Positions 56,094 to 64,000 of a DNA stretch of 64,000 nt are shown one piece after another. Source of the DNA: an uncultured Alphaproteobacteria bacterium (lineage in GTDB: Bacteria > Pseudomonadota > Alphaproteobacteria > Rhodobacterales > Rhodobacteraceae); assembly GCA_902524655.1 (NCBI GenBank), contig CABZEG010000004.1, positions 1 to 64,000 of the forward strand. Reading direction: 5' to 3'. Under the pieces are notes generated by a model. It had not been told where the DNA came from. It made no database searches and saw only the letters and a list, made by a program, of their open reading frames with translations. Every line of letters starts with the position of its first letter. Position 1 is the stretch's first letter. The position numbers and the translations under genes are program-made.

Positions 56094-56522
56094 TTGGTTG
56101 AAAATATAAAATCATTAGAGGCTTTTGATCTTCTAAGAGAAGACAAACTCGCGGTATTGATTGATGTAAGAACTGAGAAAGAGCATTTAGCGGTTGGAAT
56201 GCCAGACTTACGAGAAATAGAAAAAACGACCCACCTAGTAGAATGGAGAAACTCGATTTTACCAGGGTCACGAAAACGATTTTTACATGATTTTAACGAA
56301 AAGATTGGCCTTCAAGAAGAAGGAAAGTATCTATTTATTTGTAGATCTGGAATAAGATCGAACTTCGCCGCATTAACTGTGGAAGAATCGTTTAATTCGG
56401 GTAATTATAATATAAAGAGTTTTAATATAATTGACGGCTTCGAAGGAAACGAACAATCTATAGGAGATGTAAAAACTCCAACTGGTTGGAAAAATGTGGG
56501 CTTGCCCTGGAAAAAGAGTTAA
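56094..56522 (+). CDS. Rhodanese-domain protein (single domain)
   Basis: LAVLIDVRTEKEHLAVGMPDL; FICRSGIRSNFAA active-site loop; FNIIDGFEGN. TTG start. Confidence 0.88.
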   Translation: MVENIKSLEAFDLLREDKLAVLIDVRTEKEHLAVGMPDLREIEKTTHLVEWRNSILPGSRKRFLHDFNEKIGLQEEGKYLFICRSGIRSNFAALTVEESFNSGNYNIKSFNIIDGFEGNEQSIGDVKTPTGWKNVGLPWKKS

Positions 56523-56525
56523 CTA

Positions 56526-57890
56526 ATGCACAAAGATGAGTGGTCAAAGGTAAAAGAATTTGTAAAGAACAATATAGGCGAAAGCGCTCACACGAACTGG
56601 ATACAGCCTATTGAGCTTAAAGAGATTAAAGGTTCTGTTGCAAAATTTAAAGTGCCCACCAGGTTTATTGGTACCTGGGTGCATAGAAATTATGGGGACC
56701 ATATTATCCAAGGATTCAAAAATCAAAAATTGAATATTGAAAGGCTAGAGTTTATTGCTTCGGTGGATAGATTATTAGTGAAAAAAGATAGTTCAGAGAA
56801 AAAAATACCTAAAAAGGCGGAACAAAAAGATCAGGAATCGCAACAGGATTTACCTAGTTCACCTCTCGATGTTAGGTTCACTTTTGATAAATTTGTGGTT
56901 GGAAAACCTAATGAGTTAGCTCATGCCGCCGCAAAAAGAGTTTCAGAAGGGGGAAAGGTCACGTTTAACCCATTATTCTTGTATGGAGGGGTCGGTTTAG
57001 GAAAAACGCATCTAATGCATGCTATTGCTTGGTCCACTAAAGAAAAAAATAAAAAAGCGCGAATATTATATCTTTCAGCCGAACAGTTTATGTATAGGTT
57101 TGTTCAAGCTTTAAGATTTAAGGATATGCACGCATTCAAAAAGTTATTTAGATCTGTCGATGTTTTGATGGTTGATGATGTGCAGTTCATAGCTGGGAAA
57201 GACTCTACTCAGGATGAGTTTTTCCATACTTTCAACGCTCTTATCGAGCAGGGGAAGCAAATAGTTATATCCGCTGACAGAGCTCCTGGAGAAATTGACG
57301 GTCTAGAAGAGAGGATTAAATCAAGACTAGCGTGGGGTCTTGTTGTAGATGTACATCCAACGGACTACGAATTACGTCTAGGAATTTTACAGGCTAAAGC
57401 TGAAATTCAAATGGAACTTAATAAAGATGTTAAAATTGATGAAGGAATATTAGAGTATCTTGCCCATAAAATTTCATCGAATGTCAGAGTATTAGAAGGA
57501 GCTCTAACGAGGTTATTCGCCTTTGCATCTTTGGTTGGAAAAGAAATAAACATCGATTTAGTTCAGGAATGTCTATCGGATATTCTTAGAACTTCAGAGA
57601 GAAAAGTTACTATTGAAGAGATAATCAGAAAAGTTGCCGAACACTACAACCTCAGAATGACAGATTTGGTATCTGCAAGACGAGCAAGGGTAGTAGCTAG
57701 GCCCAGACAGATAGCTATGTTTTTATCCAAAAGTCTAACCTCGAAATCTCTGCCGGAAATTGGAAGAAAATTTGGTGGAAGAGATCATACTACCGTTATA
57801 CATGCCGTGAAAAAAATCGAGGAGCTAAAACTTATTGATGTACAAGTAGCAGACGAGGTAGAAATCTTGCGCAGAACTCTTGAGGCATAA
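56526..57890 (+). CDS. dnaA: Chromosomal replication initiator DnaA
   Basis: FTFDKFVVGKPNELAHAAAKRVSE; NPLFLYGGVGLGKTHLMHAIA; VDVLMVDDVQFIAGKDSTQDEFFHTFNAL; GGRDHTTVIHAVKKIE. Confidence 0.99.
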   Translation: MHKDEWSKVKEFVKNNIGESAHTNWIQPIELKEIKGSVAKFKVPTRFIGTWVHRNYGDHIIQGFKNQKLNIERLEFIASVDRLLVKKDSSEKKIPKKAEQKDQESQQDLPSSPLDVRFTFDKFVVGKPNELAHAAAKRVSEGGKVTFNPLFLYGGVGLGKTHLMHAIAWSTKEKNKKARILYLSAEQFMYRFVQALRFKDMHAFKKLFRSVDVLMVDDVQFIAGKDSTQDEFFHTFNALIEQGKQIVISADRAPGEIDGLEERIKSRLAWGLVVDVHPTDYELRLGILQAKAEIQMELNKDVKIDEGILEYLAHKISSNVRVLEGALTRLFAFASLVGKEINIDLVQECLSDILRTSERKVTIEEIIRKVAEHYNLRMTDLVSARRARVVARPRQIAMFLSKSLTSKSLPEIGRKFGGRDHTTVIHAVKKIEELKLIDVQVADEVEILRRTLEA

Positions 57891-57963
57891 AAAGTTTTTC
57901 GCTATTATTTTTATTTAAAAAAGGCTACTATTCATCGAAGACATTTATTTGTATGAATCAAAA

Positions 57964-59082
57964 ATGAAGATTAGCGTAGAAAGAAACGATTTGCTTAAGT
58001 CAATGAGCCGAGCGCAAGCTATCGTTGAGAGAAGAACTACTATTCCGATTTTATCAAACGTTTTAATTGAGGCTAGAGAGGACTGTCTAACACTAAGGGC
58101 CACTGACTTAGATATCGAATTATTAGACTCTGTTAAAGCTGTAGTTGAAAAAGAGGGAGCTGTTACTGTAGGTGCACATACCTTCTATGATATTCTTAGA
58201 AAACTGCCAGATGGCTCGAGGGTCTTAATAGATCTCGATCCTTTAGATCAGAAAATAAATGTGAAAGCTGGACGTTCTACTTTTTCATTAACGACAATTT
58301 CGGTTGACGATTTTCCATTAATGGCATCATCGGAATATGACTTTTCTTTCTCTATAAAAAGTGAAGAATTAAGAAGACTTTTCGAAAAAGTAAAGTTTGC
58401 AATGTCGATGGAAGAAACAAGATTTTATCTTAACGGAGTTTTTTTCCATGAGTTCACTTATCAAGACTTAAAGCTTTTACGTACTGTGGCTACAGATGGT
58501 CATAGACTCGCAAAAATAGATTCAGTATTACCAGAAAATGCAAATGGAATGCCTGGGGTGATTGTACCACGAAAAACAGTTTCTGAATTGAGAATGATCT
58601 ATGAAACTACAGAGGAAATAGTATCTATATCTGTATCAGAAACGAAAATACGTTTTTCAAACTCCACATTATCTCTAACATCCAAGGTAGTTGATGGCTC
58701 TTTTCCTGACTATGATAGGGTTATTCCAAAAAATAATGTTAAAAGACTGGTTATTGATGCTTCAGAGTTTGCTAAATCAGTTGATCGAGTAGCAACTGTT
58801 TCTTCGGAGCGAGCTCGAGCAGTAAAATTGAGTCTTAGTAAAGAAAAGCTTATACTGTCTGTAAATGCTCCAGAGACAGGATTAGCGATTGAGGAAATTC
58901 CAGTAGCTTATGAGGGAGAGGAAATTGAAATTGGATTTAATGCTAAGTATCTTCAAGAGATTTCTAATCAAGTAGAAAGCGGGGAAGCAATTTTCTTATT
59001 CAATGATGTTGGGGACCCTGCACTTATGAAGGATAATAATGACGACACGGCGGTTTATGTCGTTATGCCTATGCGTGTTTAG
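57964..59082 (+). CDS. dnaN: DNA polymerase III beta (sliding clamp)
   Basis: MKISVERNDLLKSMSRAQAIVERRTTIPILSNVLIEA; VATDGHRLAK; YVVMPMRV C-term. Confidence 0.98.
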   Translation: MKISVERNDLLKSMSRAQAIVERRTTIPILSNVLIEAREDCLTLRATDLDIELLDSVKAVVEKEGAVTVGAHTFYDILRKLPDGSRVLIDLDPLDQKINVKAGRSTFSLTTISVDDFPLMASSEYDFSFSIKSEELRRLFEKVKFAMSMEETRFYLNGVFFHEFTYQDLKLLRTVATDGHRLAKIDSVLPENANGMPGVIVPRKTVSELRMIYETTEEIVSISVSETKIRFSNSTLSLTSKVVDGSFPDYDRVIPKNNVKRLVIDASEFAKSVDRVATVSSERARAVKLSLSKEKLILSVNAPETGLAIEEIPVAYEGEEIEIGFNAKYLQEISNQVESGEAIFLFNDVGDPALMKDNNDDTAVYVVMPMRV

Positions 59083-59097
59083 AATATTTATATTGAA

Positions 59098-60204
59098 ATG
59101 AGTTCTGTAGGAATAGAAAAACTCAAAATTAGTAATTTTAGATCCTATAAATCTTTAGAGCTTTTTTTTGACTCTGTTCCTACCGTCATTTACGGAAAAA
59201 ATGGAGTTGGAAAAACAAACCTTTTGGAAGCTATATCTCTCTTATATCCAGGAAAGGGGATAAGAAGATCTAGCTTTTTTGAAATGGTGAATATTTCTAA
59301 CAATCTTCCCTGGAAGGTCGAGGCTTTATGCCGCAGAAAAAATAATCTTTTTGAAATAGAGACTTACAGCGACGGAAAGGGAAGACATGTAAGAGTAGAT
59401 GGCAAAAAAGTACCACAGAATAACCTTAGCTCGGGTTTGAAAATTATATGGTTTCTACCACAATTGGATAGAATTTGGATGGAAACCTCCAAGGACAGAA
59501 GAAAGTTCTTAGATAGAATGGTATTTAGTCTTGATATTAGCCATGCAAAAAGATGTGCTCAATATGAAAAGCTTCTCAGGGACAGGAATAGGTTATTAAA
59601 AAACCGCATAGAAGACAGCTCTTGGTATCTCGCCATCGAAAAGGAAATGGCCATACTTGGGTTTAAAATAGATAATTGTAGAAGAAAATTTGTTGAACAG
59701 CTTAATATAGTTTTAAAGGAAAAGAATATTTATTTCCCACTAATCAAGCTGAGTCTAAAAGATCATCCTGTAGAAAGCGAAGAAGTATTTTTGCAAAATT
59801 TAATTAAAAAAAGAGGGCAGGACCTGATATCTGGCCGAACGAATTTCGGGCCTCACACAGATGATCTGCAAGGCTTTTATTTTGAGAAAGAAATAGATAC
59901 AAAATATTGTTCTACAGGTGAGCAAAAGCTTTCAATAATTTCTATTATTTTATCCAACGCAAAATTGATCCAAGAACAAAATAACGTTTCTCCTATTTTG
60001 CTGTTAGATGAGATAACGGCGCATTTGGATGAAGTACGCAAAGAAAATTTATTTTCGGAGTTATTGTCCTTGGAAAGTCAGTTCTTTATTTCAGGAACTG
60101 AGGTTGGTATATTTAATTCATTAGGTTCCAAAGCAAAATTTTTGGATATAAATGAAAAAAAAAGTTTGTCGTCTAGTTTTTTTCGAAAAAAGGACAATCT
60201 TTGA
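59098..60204 (+). CDS. recF: DNA replication/repair protein RecF
   Basis: LKISNFRSYKSLELFFDSVPTVIYGKNGVGKTNLLEAISLLYPGKGIR; FGPHTDDLQ; STGEQKLSIISIILSNAKLI; LLLDEITAHLD. Confidence 0.96.
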   Translation: MSSVGIEKLKISNFRSYKSLELFFDSVPTVIYGKNGVGKTNLLEAISLLYPGKGIRRSSFFEMVNISNNLPWKVEALCRRKNNLFEIETYSDGKGRHVRVDGKKVPQNNLSSGLKIIWFLPQLDRIWMETSKDRRKFLDRMVFSLDISHAKRCAQYEKLLRDRNRLLKNRIEDSSWYLAIEKEMAILGFKIDNCRRKFVEQLNIVLKEKNIYFPLIKLSLKDHPVESEEVFLQNLIKKRGQDLISGRTNFGPHTDDLQGFYFEKEIDTKYCSTGEQKLSIISIILSNAKLIQEQNNVSPILLLDEITAHLDEVRKENLFSELLSLESQFFISGTEVGIFNSLGSKAKFLDINEKKSLSSSFFRKKDNL

Positions 60205-61324
60205 TTATATCTCTACCAACATCATTTATATCTCTTTTTCCGCAGAGAGCCATCGTCATATCGAGTTCTTTGTTTAGAATCTCTAAAGATTTCATGACTC
60301 CTTTTTTTCCTCCGGCTGACAGACCATATACAAAAGATCTACCAATCATCACGCCGGTGGCTCCTAGAGCAATAGCCTTGAGAATATCCTGACCAGAGGA
60401 TATACCGCCATCCATTAATACATCCATATTGGATACAGCTTTCTTTATTTCCGGAAGTGTGGAAATCGAACTATTAACACCATCCAATTGCCTTCCACCA
60501 TGATTAGAAACCACCAAAGCGTCTGCACCACATTTCTGTGCCATTTTGGCGTCATCCGGGTCCATTATCCCCTTTATAATTAATTTTCTTCCCCACCAGT
60601 CTTTTATTCTTTTGACATCATCCCAGTTTAGTTTCGGGTCAAATTGACTTTGTACCCATTTAGTTAGAGAGGTTAGATTTTTTATATCCTTTACATGCCC
60701 CATAATGTTACCGAAGGTCCTATTTTTCGATTTTACCATTTCAAAACACCAATTTGGTTTTGATATTAAGTCAAAAACATTAGACATTTTTATTTTCATA
60801 GGGACTGACAAACCATTCCTTATATCGGCGTGTCTCTGACCAAGAATTTGTAAGTCCAGAGTAAGTACCAATGCAGAGCATTCCACTGCCTTTGCCCTCT
60901 CAACTAATCTTTTAGCAAAATCGTGATCTCTCATTACATATAGTTGAAACCAAAACGGCTCCGAAGTATTTCTCGCAACTTCCTCTATTGAACAGATCGA
61001 CATGGTAGAGAGTGTAAAAGGCACACCGAAATTTTCGGCTGCTTGCGCCGCTAGTATCTCGCCATTTGCTTTTTGCATGCCAAGTAAACCCACTGGAGCT
61101 AAAGCAACTGGCATTTTGAAGTCTGTGCCTAATAAACTCTTTATAGTAGTTCTATTAGATATGTCGACGGCAACTCTTTGTCTAAAGGAAATTTTTTTAA
61201 AATCGTTACTGTTATCTTTCAAAGTAGATTCCGTCCAAGAGCCTGATAGAACATAATCATGAAACGCTTTGGGAACTTTCTTTCTTGCTTCGTATTTTAG
61301 ATCGTCAATAGTGAGATATTCCAT
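60173..61324 (-). CDS. FMN-dependent alpha-hydroxy acid dehydrogenase/oxidase (lactate dehydrogenase LldD-like)
   Basis: EYLTIDDLKYEARKKVPKAFHDYVLSGSWTESTLKDN; LAPVGLLGMQKANGE; DALVVSNHGGRQLDGV; VLMDGGISSGQDILKAIALGATGVMIGRSFVYGLSAGG. Confidence 0.94.
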   Translation of the reverse strand: MEYLTIDDLKYEARKKVPKAFHDYVLSGSWTESTLKDNSNDFKKISFRQRVAVDISNRTTIKSLLGTDFKMPVALAPVGLLGMQKANGEILAAQAAENFGVPFTLSTMSICSIEEVARNTSEPFWFQLYVMRDHDFAKRLVERAKAVECSALVLTLDLQILGQRHADIRNGLSVPMKIKMSNVFDLISKPNWCFEMVKSKNRTFGNIMGHVKDIKNLTSLTKWVQSQFDPKLNWDDVKRIKDWWGRKLIIKGIMDPDDAKMAQKCGADALVVSNHGGRQLDGVNSSISTLPEIKKAVSNMDVLMDGGISSGQDILKAIALGATGVMIGRSFVYGLSAGGKKGVMKSLEILNKELDMTMALCGKRDINDVGRDIIKDCPFFEKN

Positions 61325-61336
61325 GTGATACTCTCT

Positions 61337-61801
61337 TTAAATCTTAAGGTCTAATCTGGGTTTCCAAAAGGGACGAAAGAGTTCAATTTTGGGACATCTG
61401 TTCATTACTACTTTTAACCCTGCTTTTTTTGCTGTCTCTGCAGCTACGTCATCATAAACGCCAATTTGACCCCAAAGCACTTTTGCATTTATTTCGATTG
61501 CTTCTTTTGCTACTGATAATAGCTCTTCTTTTCGTCGAAATACTTGTACCATATCAACGGGTTTATCTATTTCCTTTAGACTGTGAAAGACTTTAAGACC
61601 TCTAATCTCTTTGATGTTCGGGTTTGGGTTAACAGGTAACATTTGATATCCAGTTTCATGTAGCACCCGTAAAACACCATAGCTAAATTTTGTCTTATCC
61701 CCACTAGCTCCAACCATAGCAATCGTTTTCACAGATTTCAGAATGTCTGCGATATAACCTTTAGGATAGTCATAAATGTGGTCTACATCAGCTTCAGGCA
61801 T
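61337..61801 (-). CDS. CoA-binding domain protein (YccU-like)
   Basis: VKTIAMVGASGDKTKFSYGVLRVLHETGYQMLPVNPNP; VDMVQVFRRKEELLSVAKEAI; KVLWGQIGVYDDVAAETAKKAGLKVVMNRCPKIE. Confidence 0.92.
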   Translation of the reverse strand: MPEADVDHIYDYPKGYIADILKSVKTIAMVGASGDKTKFSYGVLRVLHETGYQMLPVNPNPNIKEIRGLKVFHSLKEIDKPVDMVQVFRRKEELLSVAKEAIEINAKVLWGQIGVYDDVAAETAKKAGLKVVMNRCPKIELFRPFWKPRLDLKI

Positions 61802-62175
61802 TACTTCTCTCTTTCTTTTTTTGCAATATCATCTTTTAGTTCATGAGGCTTCAAGGGATCTAAAAATGGATTTCTGTAAAGCTTATCATGACTCTCAACA
61901 CCAATTTCAAGAATAAGGTTTGACCTAGGTCTTGCTACGCACAGTATAATGTATCCATCATTTATCTGTCTATTATTAAGTGCCACTTGTCTTCTTTGAT
62001 CTACTTCTCCATCAATAAGTTTCGCTGCACACGTTATACATCCACCATACTTGCAGCCATAGGGTAGATCAACGCCCTGTTCCCTTAAGCTGTCAAGTAA
62101 AGGTCTCTTCGGCTGAACTTGGTATGATATTCCACCCTTATTTGATAATTCGACCTTAAATGTTTTCACAGCCAT
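61801..62175 (-). CDS. Plant-type 2Fe-2S ferredoxin
   Basis: LPYGCKYGGCITCAAKLIDGEVDQ...GYIILCVARP (CX4CX2C...C). Confidence 0.93.
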   Translation of the reverse strand: MAVKTFKVELSNKGGISYQVQPKRPLLDSLREQGVDLPYGCKYGGCITCAAKLIDGEVDQRRQVALNNRQINDGYIILCVARPRSNLILEIGVESHDKLYRNPFLDPLKPHELKDDIAKKEREK

Positions 62176-63521
62176 ATATCACTTGTGCAATCGCCACCAG
62201 GATATCTACTTTCGTGACAGCGACTTGGACCATTTGGTTCTTCGCCAAAATTTACCATAAAATCAGGATTAATTTTCATTCCTCCGTTCACTGGGTCACA
62301 GTCAATCATTATCATAACGCCTCCCTTTTCTCTTATATCTGGATAAAATTGATTGTCCCAAGTTGAAAATAGAGAGGTGGTTACATACAATCTTTTACCA
62401 TCTAGGCTCAGCTGAAACATTTGTGGTCCACCTGCAATCTCAAGGCCATTAACCTTAGGCGCTCTTCCAAGTAAACCACCCATCCAAACTTGGCCAGTAA
62501 GTTTTGGTTTATGGGGGTCTGATATATCATACTGCCTCATATCTCCGTGCAGCCAATTATTGAGATATAAATATTTATCATCCATTGAAACAAGAATTGC
62601 GGACATCACGCCTGGAATAGGAATTGGCCAATCTGGGTGGGGTTGATTTTCCACATCAATAATTTTTTCCCATTGCCATTTTTCATTTTTATCTTTCCAC
62701 CAATGTATTACGTTTGCGCTTAGAGCTGCGCCACAAAACCCATGACTGCTATCTGGATTATGATGAAACTTTACTTCTAATGGAACGAGACCATCTTCAC
62801 CCAAATACATAGTTTCTATTGGCTTACGTTCCTTGAAATCCCAGAAGTGAAGTTGTCTTCCATACTTGAGGTGTCCAACTTCTTCTAAATCAAAACCCGG
62901 CATAAATGTGTTTGGAGCAGCCCATTCCGATGAAACCATTATATTGTGTCTTGGTTGATACCAAAAATCATACCCAAATGGTATATCTCCCATTGAGTTT
63001 TCCCATCTTCCAATAATTTCAAAATTCTTATCCAGATGCAAATATCCTCCAGGTGCTTCTCCCTTTGCATCACCCAGCATAGATATAATTATTTCTGAGC
63101 CCAGACAATGGACGGTATGTGGGCCACTTAAGTTGGTTTTTGATTTAATGTCTGTTCCGTCAATAACTTTGTGGAGAGCGGGCATTCTAGGATTGGTCGC
63201 GGTATCCACTATGTGAATATTATTCGACCTCACTCCTGGAAGTAAAAGATATCTGCGGGTCATGCTAGAGTCGCCATGGCAAGATGAACACGCATTCCAT
63301 CCCATATGATGAAGTTCATCACCAATGCCTGGCATTTCCAACCTATGTATAACTTTCGAATAAGTAGGGCTATCGGGGTCAACATCGACTGTAGCTAAAT
63401 AGTCAGGCTTTTGTATTCCCGTTCCTGTATATATTGCAATTGTATATAAAAGTTTTTCCTTTGGTGCTTTTATAGCTTCTGCAGGGGTCGAATATCCAGG
63501 GCCACAACACGTTTCATTCAT
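62166..63521 (-). CDS. Selenium-binding protein SBP56 family / putative methanethiol oxidase
   Basis: CCGPGYSTPAEAIKAPKEKLLY; ATVDVDPDSPTYSKVIHRLEMP; DELHHMGWNACSSCHGD; GYDFWYQPRHNIMVSSEWAAPNTF; NWLHGDMRQYDISDP; SLDGKRLYVTTSLFSTWDNQFYPD; RYPGGDCTSDIWL. Confidence 0.95.
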   Translation of the reverse strand: MNETCCGPGYSTPAEAIKAPKEKLLYTIAIYTGTGIQKPDYLATVDVDPDSPTYSKVIHRLEMPGIGDELHHMGWNACSSCHGDSSMTRRYLLLPGVRSNNIHIVDTATNPRMPALHKVIDGTDIKSKTNLSGPHTVHCLGSEIIISMLGDAKGEAPGGYLHLDKNFEIIGRWENSMGDIPFGYDFWYQPRHNIMVSSEWAAPNTFMPGFDLEEVGHLKYGRQLHFWDFKERKPIETMYLGEDGLVPLEVKFHHNPDSSHGFCGAALSANVIHWWKDKNEKWQWEKIIDVENQPHPDWPIPIPGVMSAILVSMDDKYLYLNNWLHGDMRQYDISDPHKPKLTGQVWMGGLLGRAPKVNGLEIAGGPQMFQLSLDGKRLYVTTSLFSTWDNQFYPDIREKGGVMIMIDCDPVNGGMKINPDFMVNFGEEPNGPSRCHESRYPGGDCTSDIWL

Positions 63522-63524
63522 TGT

Positions 63525-63923
63525 TTATTCTTTCGTTTCAATAGGATTTCCAGATTTTTTCCAGGCTGCGAAGCCTCCCTCTAGATGAGATACGGGGCTC
63601 AGACCCATGTCTTGTGCTGCTTTGGCTGCAAGAGCAGATCGGCCAGCTGCAGCACAATAAAAAACATATTTCTTGTCTTGGTTAAAAATTTCTTTGTGGT
63701 AGGGACTATCAGGGTCTATCCAGAATTCGAGCATTCCTCTCGGGCAAGAGAACGAATTTGGAATTTTTCCTTCTCTTTGAATTTCCCTAGGGTCTCTTAT
63801 ATCTACAAAAACGTACTTACTATCTTCGAAATATTTTGAGGCATCAACTACAGGTGTTATTTCAACCTCTTTATTTGCTTCAGCTACCATATCTTTCACA
63901 TGTTTTACTATTTTTTGTGTCAT
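63525..63923 (-). CDS. Rhodanese-domain sulfurtransferase
   Basis: YVFVDIRDPREIQREGKIPNSFSCPRGMLEFW; YVFYCAAAGRSALAAKAAQDMGLSPVSHLEGGFAAWKKSGNPI. Confidence 0.93.
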   Translation of the reverse strand: MTQKIVKHVKDMVAEANKEVEITPVVDASKYFEDSKYVFVDIRDPREIQREGKIPNSFSCPRGMLEFWIDPDSPYHKEIFNQDKKYVFYCAAAGRSALAAKAAQDMGLSPVSHLEGGFAAWKKSGNPIETKE

Positions 63924-64000
63924 TTTGTCTATTCCTTCCTATTTTAAGAGAAGTTTTTCTGAAACTGATCTAAACTTTCATCTATTTTTATTGAGGGTAT

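Follow-up and report, generated by a model that had tools for sequence, protein, structure and literature searches.

Near the end of the window, by which we mean the whole 64,000-nucleotide stretch analysed here (G000:C4:1-64000, from a source genome of 1.77 Mb that is 71% complete), lies a cluster of minus-strand genes whose conserved core is a trio encoding an SBP56 family protein, a 2Fe-2S ferredoxin and a coenzyme A (CoA)-binding protein. We consider it probable, though by no means certain, that this trio is a cytosolic methanethiol-oxidising unit, carried mainly by marine Alphaproteobacteria and fed by the demethylation of dimethylsulfoniopropionate (DMSP). The support is sequence-based and comes from gene linkage, motifs and gene context; the roles of the ferredoxin and the CoA-binding protein are ones that we infer. 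Methanethiol is a smelly gas derived from algal sulfur compounds and a main product of DMSP demethylation in the ocean. The nearest named records to the window are marine single-cell genomes of uncultured Alphaproteobacteria, together with metagenome-assembled genomes (MAGs) of Rhodobacteraceae, for example MED-G56. The three core genes are the following.

62166..63521, minus strand: SBP56 family protein, predicted cytosolic copper-dependent methanethiol oxidase, 451 amino acids (PF05694, E=1.5e-207; 2ECE, E=2.5e-123)
61801..62175, minus strand: plant-type 2Fe-2S ferredoxin, 124 amino acids (Fer2, E=1.1e-14; C41, C46, C49, C79; conserved tail ESHDKLYRNPFLDPLKPHEL)
61337..61801, minus strand: stand-alone CoA-binding protein, 154 amino acids, CoA_binding_2 (PF13380, E=4.9e-35; 2DUW, E=1.9e-29)

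The SBP56 protein matches its family over its full length (690 bits to PF05694 over residues 5-451) and has a fold already known from 2ECE, and the CoA-binding protein belongs to PF13380 (120.9 bits, cut-off 22.8).

A conserved three-gene core

We took and scanned 80 loci with close SBP56 relatives, and later loci were added afterwards. The raw count at an SBP56 identity of at least 80% was 90, three of these being the window's own locus, which corresponds to 88 distinct loci. The order SBP56, ferredoxin, CoA-binding gene held at 88 of the 88, with the CoA-binding gene itself visible in 86; the contigs of L037 and L079 end before it. Carriers include SAR11, SAR116, Planktomarina, Roseobacteraceae, HTCC2255, one Geminicoccaceae MAG and one Granulosicoccaceae MAG. 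The possibility, raised in the initial annotation, that the association is unique to this genome is thus decisively answered in the negative.

Because many of the 80 loci are near-copies picked by similarity, the locus count overstates their independence. A better sample is an even draw of 289 alphaproteobacterial genomes, 20 of which contain SBP56. The gene had an adjacent ferredoxin in all six genomes of the clade to which the window's protein belongs (the ferredoxin clade); at the loci taken from the remaining SBP56 genomes it never did. Four further clade members, all with the ferredoxin and CoA-binding genes, came from a sample of 399 genomes of the phylum.

The genes flanking the trio, which are listed further below, are far more variable. 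A rhodanese gene directly upstream and a gene for a flavin mononucleotide (FMN)-dependent enzyme directly downstream were found only in the nearest relatives (L002-L018), while in ten other loci the rhodanese is located after the CoA-binding gene instead. A GFA gene lies upstream in L002-L015 and is absent from L017 and L018. The conserved unit is therefore three genes, SBP56-ferredoxin-CoA-binding, and not five; the self-contained five-gene module proposed in the initial annotation is ruled out as the conserved unit by the confinement of the FMN gene and the upstream rhodanese to the nearest relatives. The rhodanese is a frequent partner that changes place, and the GFA protein, a short-chain dehydrogenase/reductase (SDR) and the FMN enzyme are lineage-specific.

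The SBP56 protein and known methanethiol oxidases

We tried the window's protein against the MtoX model NF052453 and rejected membership (159.7 bits, cut-off 650); it is approximately 27% identical to MtoX-like loci. MtoX of Hyphomicrobium and Ruegeria pomeroyi (Eyice et al. 2018, PMC5739008) shares with it the SBP56 superfamily and the copper histidines, and we also count as a likeness the IclR regulator found nearby in many relatives. However, MtoX is predicted to be periplasmic, with a leader peptide and with SCO1/SenC and MauG neighbours, whereas the window's SBP56 lacks these and has ferredoxin and CoA-binding genes. Its N-terminus, judged by hydropathy only, is not hydrophobic and gives no sign of a leader peptide, while two MtoX-like loci with clean starts (L119 and L120) have a strongly hydrophobic N-terminus. 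No SCO1/SenC or MauG gene was recognised beside SBP56 up to the end of the contig stretch. The absence of SCO1 and MauG recorded earlier for the window thus stands, but it is not a gap: since the protein is not MtoX, their absence is expected.

The likeness to the cluster-1 methanethiol oxidases RdMTO and RlMTO (Cao et al. 2024, PMC10936201) lies in three cysteines, C78, C139 and C445, set in the motifs GWNACS, HTVHC and GGDCT. In the window's protein they lie 61 and 306 residues apart. Where all three motifs are readable, ferredoxin-clade proteins nearly always show spacings of 61 and 305-306, and two haloarchaeal proteins have 59 and 308-309. The cluster-1 study gives the cysteines of RdMTO (WP_011568565.1) as C82, C143 and C448 (spacing 61 and 305, as in the window) and those of RlMTO as C76, C140 and C456 (64 and 316). 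As the former spacing is the ferredoxin-clade pattern, RdMTO is very probably a member of that clade, a placement that rests on published residue numbers and not on an alignment. RlMTO differs, and matches exactly a pattern of the ferredoxin-less clade whose members are 40% identical to the window's protein. According to that study, RdMTO consumed methanethiol and yielded sulfane sulfur and no H2O2. The chemistry leading to H2S and H2O2, which the initial annotation had presented as established, is accordingly in dispute.

The copper-binding histidines H71, H72, H135, H138 and H436 are conserved. Up to C139 the histidines and cysteines are offset by a constant 2 from human SELENBP1 (PMC10362175 numbering), so that H73/H74, H137/H140 and C80/C83/C141 of the human protein correspond to H71/H72, H135/H138 and C78/C81/C139 here. 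The human protein differs in having no bacterial-type operon partners, and its D189 and E252 match by motif only, the offset being shifted. We conclude that the SBP56 protein most likely oxidises methanethiol in the cytosol as a copper enzyme, with a ferredoxin of its own; the oxidase assignment itself is well supported.

The ferredoxin and the clade that carries it

The ferredoxin has a Fer2 domain with the C-x4-C-x2-C...C pattern, formed by the four cysteines listed above. The solved chains closest to it are plant- and cyanobacterial-type ferredoxins, and against TIGR02008 it scored 76.2 bits, narrowly below the cut-off of 81.15. A tree of 46 proteins, built by a quick method, splits SBP56 into three groups, with the ferredoxin-linked proteins forming one clade; ferredoxin presence requires three changes on this tree, and the node joining Rubrobacter has a support of 80. 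No adjacent ferredoxin was found at any of 37 loci of the 40%-identical clade or at any of six loci of the MtoX-like clade.

The pairing of SBP56 and ferredoxin also occurs on haloarchaeal plasmids (Halocatena, Natronococcus, Haladaptatus and Natronorubrum), where SBP56 is followed directly by a 2Fe-2S ferredoxin without a CoA-binding protein, and in Paracoccus seriniphilus. In Natronorubrum, a gene for a Pyr_redox_2 flavoprotein directly after the ferredoxin is a candidate reductase. A second candidate, resembling ferredoxin reductases, is encoded elsewhere in the window's genome (L163:1129-2349) and scored 279 bits to HcaD, under that model's cut-off. The SBP56 proteins of SAR11 nest among Rhodobacteraceae-type sequences, which suggests acquisition by transfer.

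Two further features mark the group linked to the CoA-binding gene. Cys435, which is clade-specific and adjoins the invariant His436, occurs in every SBP56 whose locus has the CoA-binding gene, plus two loci truncated by a contig end, and in 0 of 43 other SBP56 proteins with the site readable. The ferredoxins of this group also have a tail in common, ESHDKLYRNPFLDPLxPHEL, which is partly retained in Paracoccus and missing in haloarchaea. Cys435 and the tail point to a joint change of the enzyme and its partners. On the tree they probably arose once, and so they count as one event and not as independent evidence.

Gene context in DMSP, sulfur and formaldehyde metabolism

The window's genome contains two DmdA genes above the NF009133 cut-off (500.2 and 472.1 bits against 410), one Blh-type persulfide dioxygenase on another contig, and an O-acetylhomoserine/O-acetylserine (OAH/OAS) sulfhydrylase. 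In this genome, which is 71% complete, nothing scored above the cut-off for glutathione-dependent formaldehyde dehydrogenase (TIGR02818), and the best DmdB match reached 731 bits against a cut-off of 822. Without correction for relatedness, DmdA is enriched in genomes of the clade (4/6 versus 22/283, p=0.0007), also when the window's own genome is left out (p=0.005).

Related loci carry similar genes beside the trio. For example, on the Phaeobacter inhibens plasmid pP30_b (L090, 53660-65012), the cluster begins with a divergent IclR gene, SBP56, ferredoxin, CoA-binding, rhodanese and Blh-type sulfur dioxygenase genes, and continues with genes for an enoyl-CoA hydratase, an acyl-CoA synthetase and a GcvT/DmdA-like protein. 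Against the dioxygenase portion of the Blh model, whose whole-protein cut-off is 625, its dioxygenase scored 367 bits. Because the trio and these sulfur genes lie on a plasmid predicted to be conjugative, the pathway may be transferable. Parts of this gene set also occur in L020, L023, L030, L036, L043, L055 and L056. The DmdA-like proteins of L020, L036, L043, L055 and L056 scored 364-380 bits; as this is below the DmdA cut-off of 410, we regard them as near DmdA and do not call them DmdA. A true DmdA (540 bits) lies 4.8 kb from the cluster in L024. The combination of a rhodanese with a Blh-type dioxygenase in the SBP56-ferredoxin clusters of L090, L023 and L036 resembles the sulfide oxidation system of the bigR operon (PMC5823870). 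Unlike that system, the dioxygenase of the window's genome is on a separate contig, and the persulfide would derive from methanethiol and not from sulfide. The earlier suggestion of a methanethiol module linked to DMSP is thus still the best reading, given the RdMTO-like cysteine spacing, the DmdA or DmdA-like, persulfide dioxygenase and rhodanese genes of relatives, and the two DmdA genes of this genome.

Other neighbours were seen in particular lineages. In Planktomarina, genes for an Fe-alcohol dehydrogenase and an aldehyde dehydrogenase lie upstream of the cluster. In SAR11 (L062:183-17149), the ergothioneine genes EgtB and EgtD are found upstream of the trio together with a Rieske oxygenase and an adenosine phosphosulfate (APS)-kinase-like gene; downstream of the cluster, SAR11 has another CoA-binding gene, a DUF4864 gene, a gene for a dimethylglycine dehydrogenase-like protein, and genes reading as electron transfer flavoprotein (ETF) and ETF-quinone oxidoreductase (ETF-QO). 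A SAR11 gene of 451 amino acids near SBP56 was considered as DmdA and rejected (239 versus 410 bits). An acyl-CoA synthetase akin to L090's PRK08162-type ligase recurs beside the clade's SBP56 in L030, L036, L043, L090 and L103, and an enoyl-CoA hydratase does so in L030, L036, L043 and L090, being of the PRK08139 type where tested (L036 and L090); a PRK08139-type hydratase also lies directly upstream in SAR11. These recurrent enzymes may be methylthio-acyl-CoA enzymes not yet characterised.

Extent of the cluster in the window

The remaining genes of the cluster are as follows.

63525..63923, minus strand: single-domain rhodanese, 132 amino acids, active-site loop CAAAGR, Cys90 (PF00581, E=1.4e-18)
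60173..61324, minus strand: FMN-dependent alpha-hydroxyacid dehydrogenase, L-lactate dehydrogenase subfamily, 383 amino acids (PF01070, E=1.1e-128; PRK11197)
63944..64000 in the window (3' end), continuing to C4:64414, minus strand: GFA-family gene (formaldehyde-activating), 156 amino acids (PF04828, E=2.6e-30)
C4:64399-65106, outside the window, minus strand: SDR gene (adh_short_C2, E=1.2e-30)

We verified the coordinates of the five tightly packed minus-strand open reading frames of the initial annotation and their spacings of +3, -10, -1 and +12 nucleotides exactly, the ferredoxin frame overlapping that of SBP56 by 10 nucleotides, and Pfam confirmed all five families. The FMN enzyme falls within the PRK11197 subfamily (414.7 bits, cut-off 376) and outside the narrower LldD model NF033901 (356.6 bits, cut-off 550). 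The GFA protein matches PF04828 with 105.3 bits (cut-off 24.3), and its formaldehyde activity is predicted. The five adjoining genes are real, but the cluster does not stop where it had been drawn. The contig extends to 75046, the GFA gene lies 20 nucleotides upstream of the rhodanese, and the SDR gene overlaps it by 16 nucleotides; as both continue on the same strand past the window edge, the cluster is incomplete in the window. The transcription unit is probably SDR-GFA-rhodanese-SBP56-ferredoxin-CoA-binding-FMN, that is, seven genes.

Compared with relatives, the ratio of nonsynonymous to synonymous substitution rates is approximately 0.03-0.12 for the five window genes, indicating purifying selection, and higher (0.14-0.32) for GFA. 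The five-gene order is retained in 16 other genomes (L002-L015, L017 and L018), the contig of L016 stopping before the rhodanese. Given this selection and retained order, the cluster is not a product of chance. A search of the contig end against Rfam found no RNA element, and promoter and terminator scans gave fewer sites than in shuffled sequence.

The cluster adjoins dnaA-dnaN-recF (56526-60204), as it also does in the nearest relatives; recF and the FMN gene are convergent, with an overlap of 32 nucleotides. A second rhodanese-like reading frame (56094-56522) lies directly upstream of dnaA; with 21.8 bits it falls just short of the 22.2 required by Pfam. Another FMN-dependent alpha-hydroxyacid dehydrogenase (L082:9999-11114, that is, C4:69999-71114; 339 bits to PF01070) is encoded on the same strand, approximately 9 kb away from the first.

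Proposed mechanism and alternatives

In the pathway that we propose, DmdA would generate methanethiol from DMSP, and the methanethiol would bind C445, as judged from a tested enzyme of the same type (PMC10936201). By the same analogy, attack by O2 would release formaldehyde and leave the sulfane sulfur on the enzyme as a persulfide at C445. The ferredoxin would move electrons to or from the Cu/Cys site, either for a monooxygenase-like oxidation or for discharge of the persulfide. As a donor it would permit the balance CH3SH + O2 + 2 e- + 2 H+ -> HCHO + H2S + H2O; because this needs neither H2O2 nor free S0, the conflicting product reports would be reconciled. Cys90 of the rhodanese would take the sulfane sulfur towards glutathione and the persulfide dioxygenase, and GFA would deal with the formaldehyde. 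The CoA-binding protein would most likely present CoA or a CoA thiol to the site, which is the weakest step. The FMN enzyme, probably a lactate-type dehydrogenase that is co-transcribed, would have no direct part. A bolder version, which we put forward tentatively and regard as somewhat doubtful, is that a single SBP56 clade, found in marine Alphaproteobacteria as well as haloarchaea, is made up of copper enzymes that depend on a ferredoxin. Electrons supplied by this ferredoxin would drive monooxygenase-like oxidation or persulfide discharge; the conflict over products (H2S and H2O2 versus sulfane sulfur and water) would come partly from ferredoxin-free assays, and the marine branch would have added the CoA-binding protein, the ferredoxin tail and C435 beside the metal-site candidate His436.

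Several observations weigh against the proposed unit. RdMTO and RlMTO were active in vitro without a ferredoxin (PMC10936201), which shows that it is not an absolute requirement. The bacterial SBP56-ferredoxin clusters contain no ferredoxin reductase gene, and in Rubrobacter, Haloterrigena and Natrinema no annotated ferredoxin adjoins SBP56. The reliance on residue numbers in placing RdMTO belongs here as well. It is conceivable, if unlikely, that SBP56 oxidises methanethiol without a redox partner and that the ferredoxin and CoA-binding protein, merely co-transcribed, serve a neighbouring step such as Fe-S or CoA thiol chemistry or persulfide reduction. The in vitro activity of the cluster-1 enzymes alone fits this explanation, as does the 40%-identity clade, which matches RlMTO by spacing and has no adjacent ferredoxin. 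However, the ferredoxin is tied to one clade from Alphaproteobacteria to haloarchaea, always lies directly downstream, often overlapping, and has a clade-specific tail.

We think it distinctly improbable that methanethiol is incidental and that the unit acts on another thiol or has a general role in sulfide and persulfide stress. Among the several thiols that human SELENBP1 oxidises, methanethiol and ethanethiol are the best substrates (PMC10362175), and haloarchaea have the pair with no DMSP genes annotated around it in the stretches covered. Yet DMSP-type genes cluster with the unit in several marine lineages, DmdA is enriched in genomes of the clade, and RdMTO is reported to consume methanethiol. 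A module handling selenium, as the family name selenium-binding protein might suggest, is very improbable indeed. The weak matches of the rhodanese to selenoprotein-related models are far under cut-off (39.1 versus 115 and 26.6 versus 805 bits), the copper site is intact, selenium is reported to be dispensable for the activity of human SELENBP1 (PMC10362175), and no selenium genes were recognised in the neighbourhoods examined.

Relation to earlier work and significance

SBP56 methanethiol oxidases are already known, as is the action of a rhodanese with a persulfide dioxygenase in sulfur oxidation; the pairing with a ferredoxin and a CoA-binding protein may be new. In the open-access library searched, which does not cover everything, we found no paper linking SBP56 with either partner. 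The accessible part of the cluster-1 study (PMC10936201) treats the enzyme alone and does not mention a ferredoxin, a CoA-binding partner or C435, and the word 'ferredoxin' is absent from Eyice et al. (PMC5739008). The differentially expressed core genes listed for MBARI-C16 include a consecutively numbered pair (2517702559 and 2517702560), a ferredoxin and a selenium-binding protein (PMC10203303).

The products and electron balance of methanethiol oxidase are disputed, and a ferredoxin found across a whole clade, including SAR11, makes this dispute directly testable. Its presence beside that clade suggests that the published assays cited here lacked a component. The arrangement SBP56-ferredoxin-CoA-binding also provides a genomic marker by which cytosolic oxidases linked to a ferredoxin can be told apart from periplasmic MtoX; MtoX-trained surveys may overlook such oxidases, as the score of 159.7 against 650 bits illustrates. 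Many abundant ocean bacteria share the trio, and the SBP56-ferredoxin pair is found in salt-loving archaea as well.

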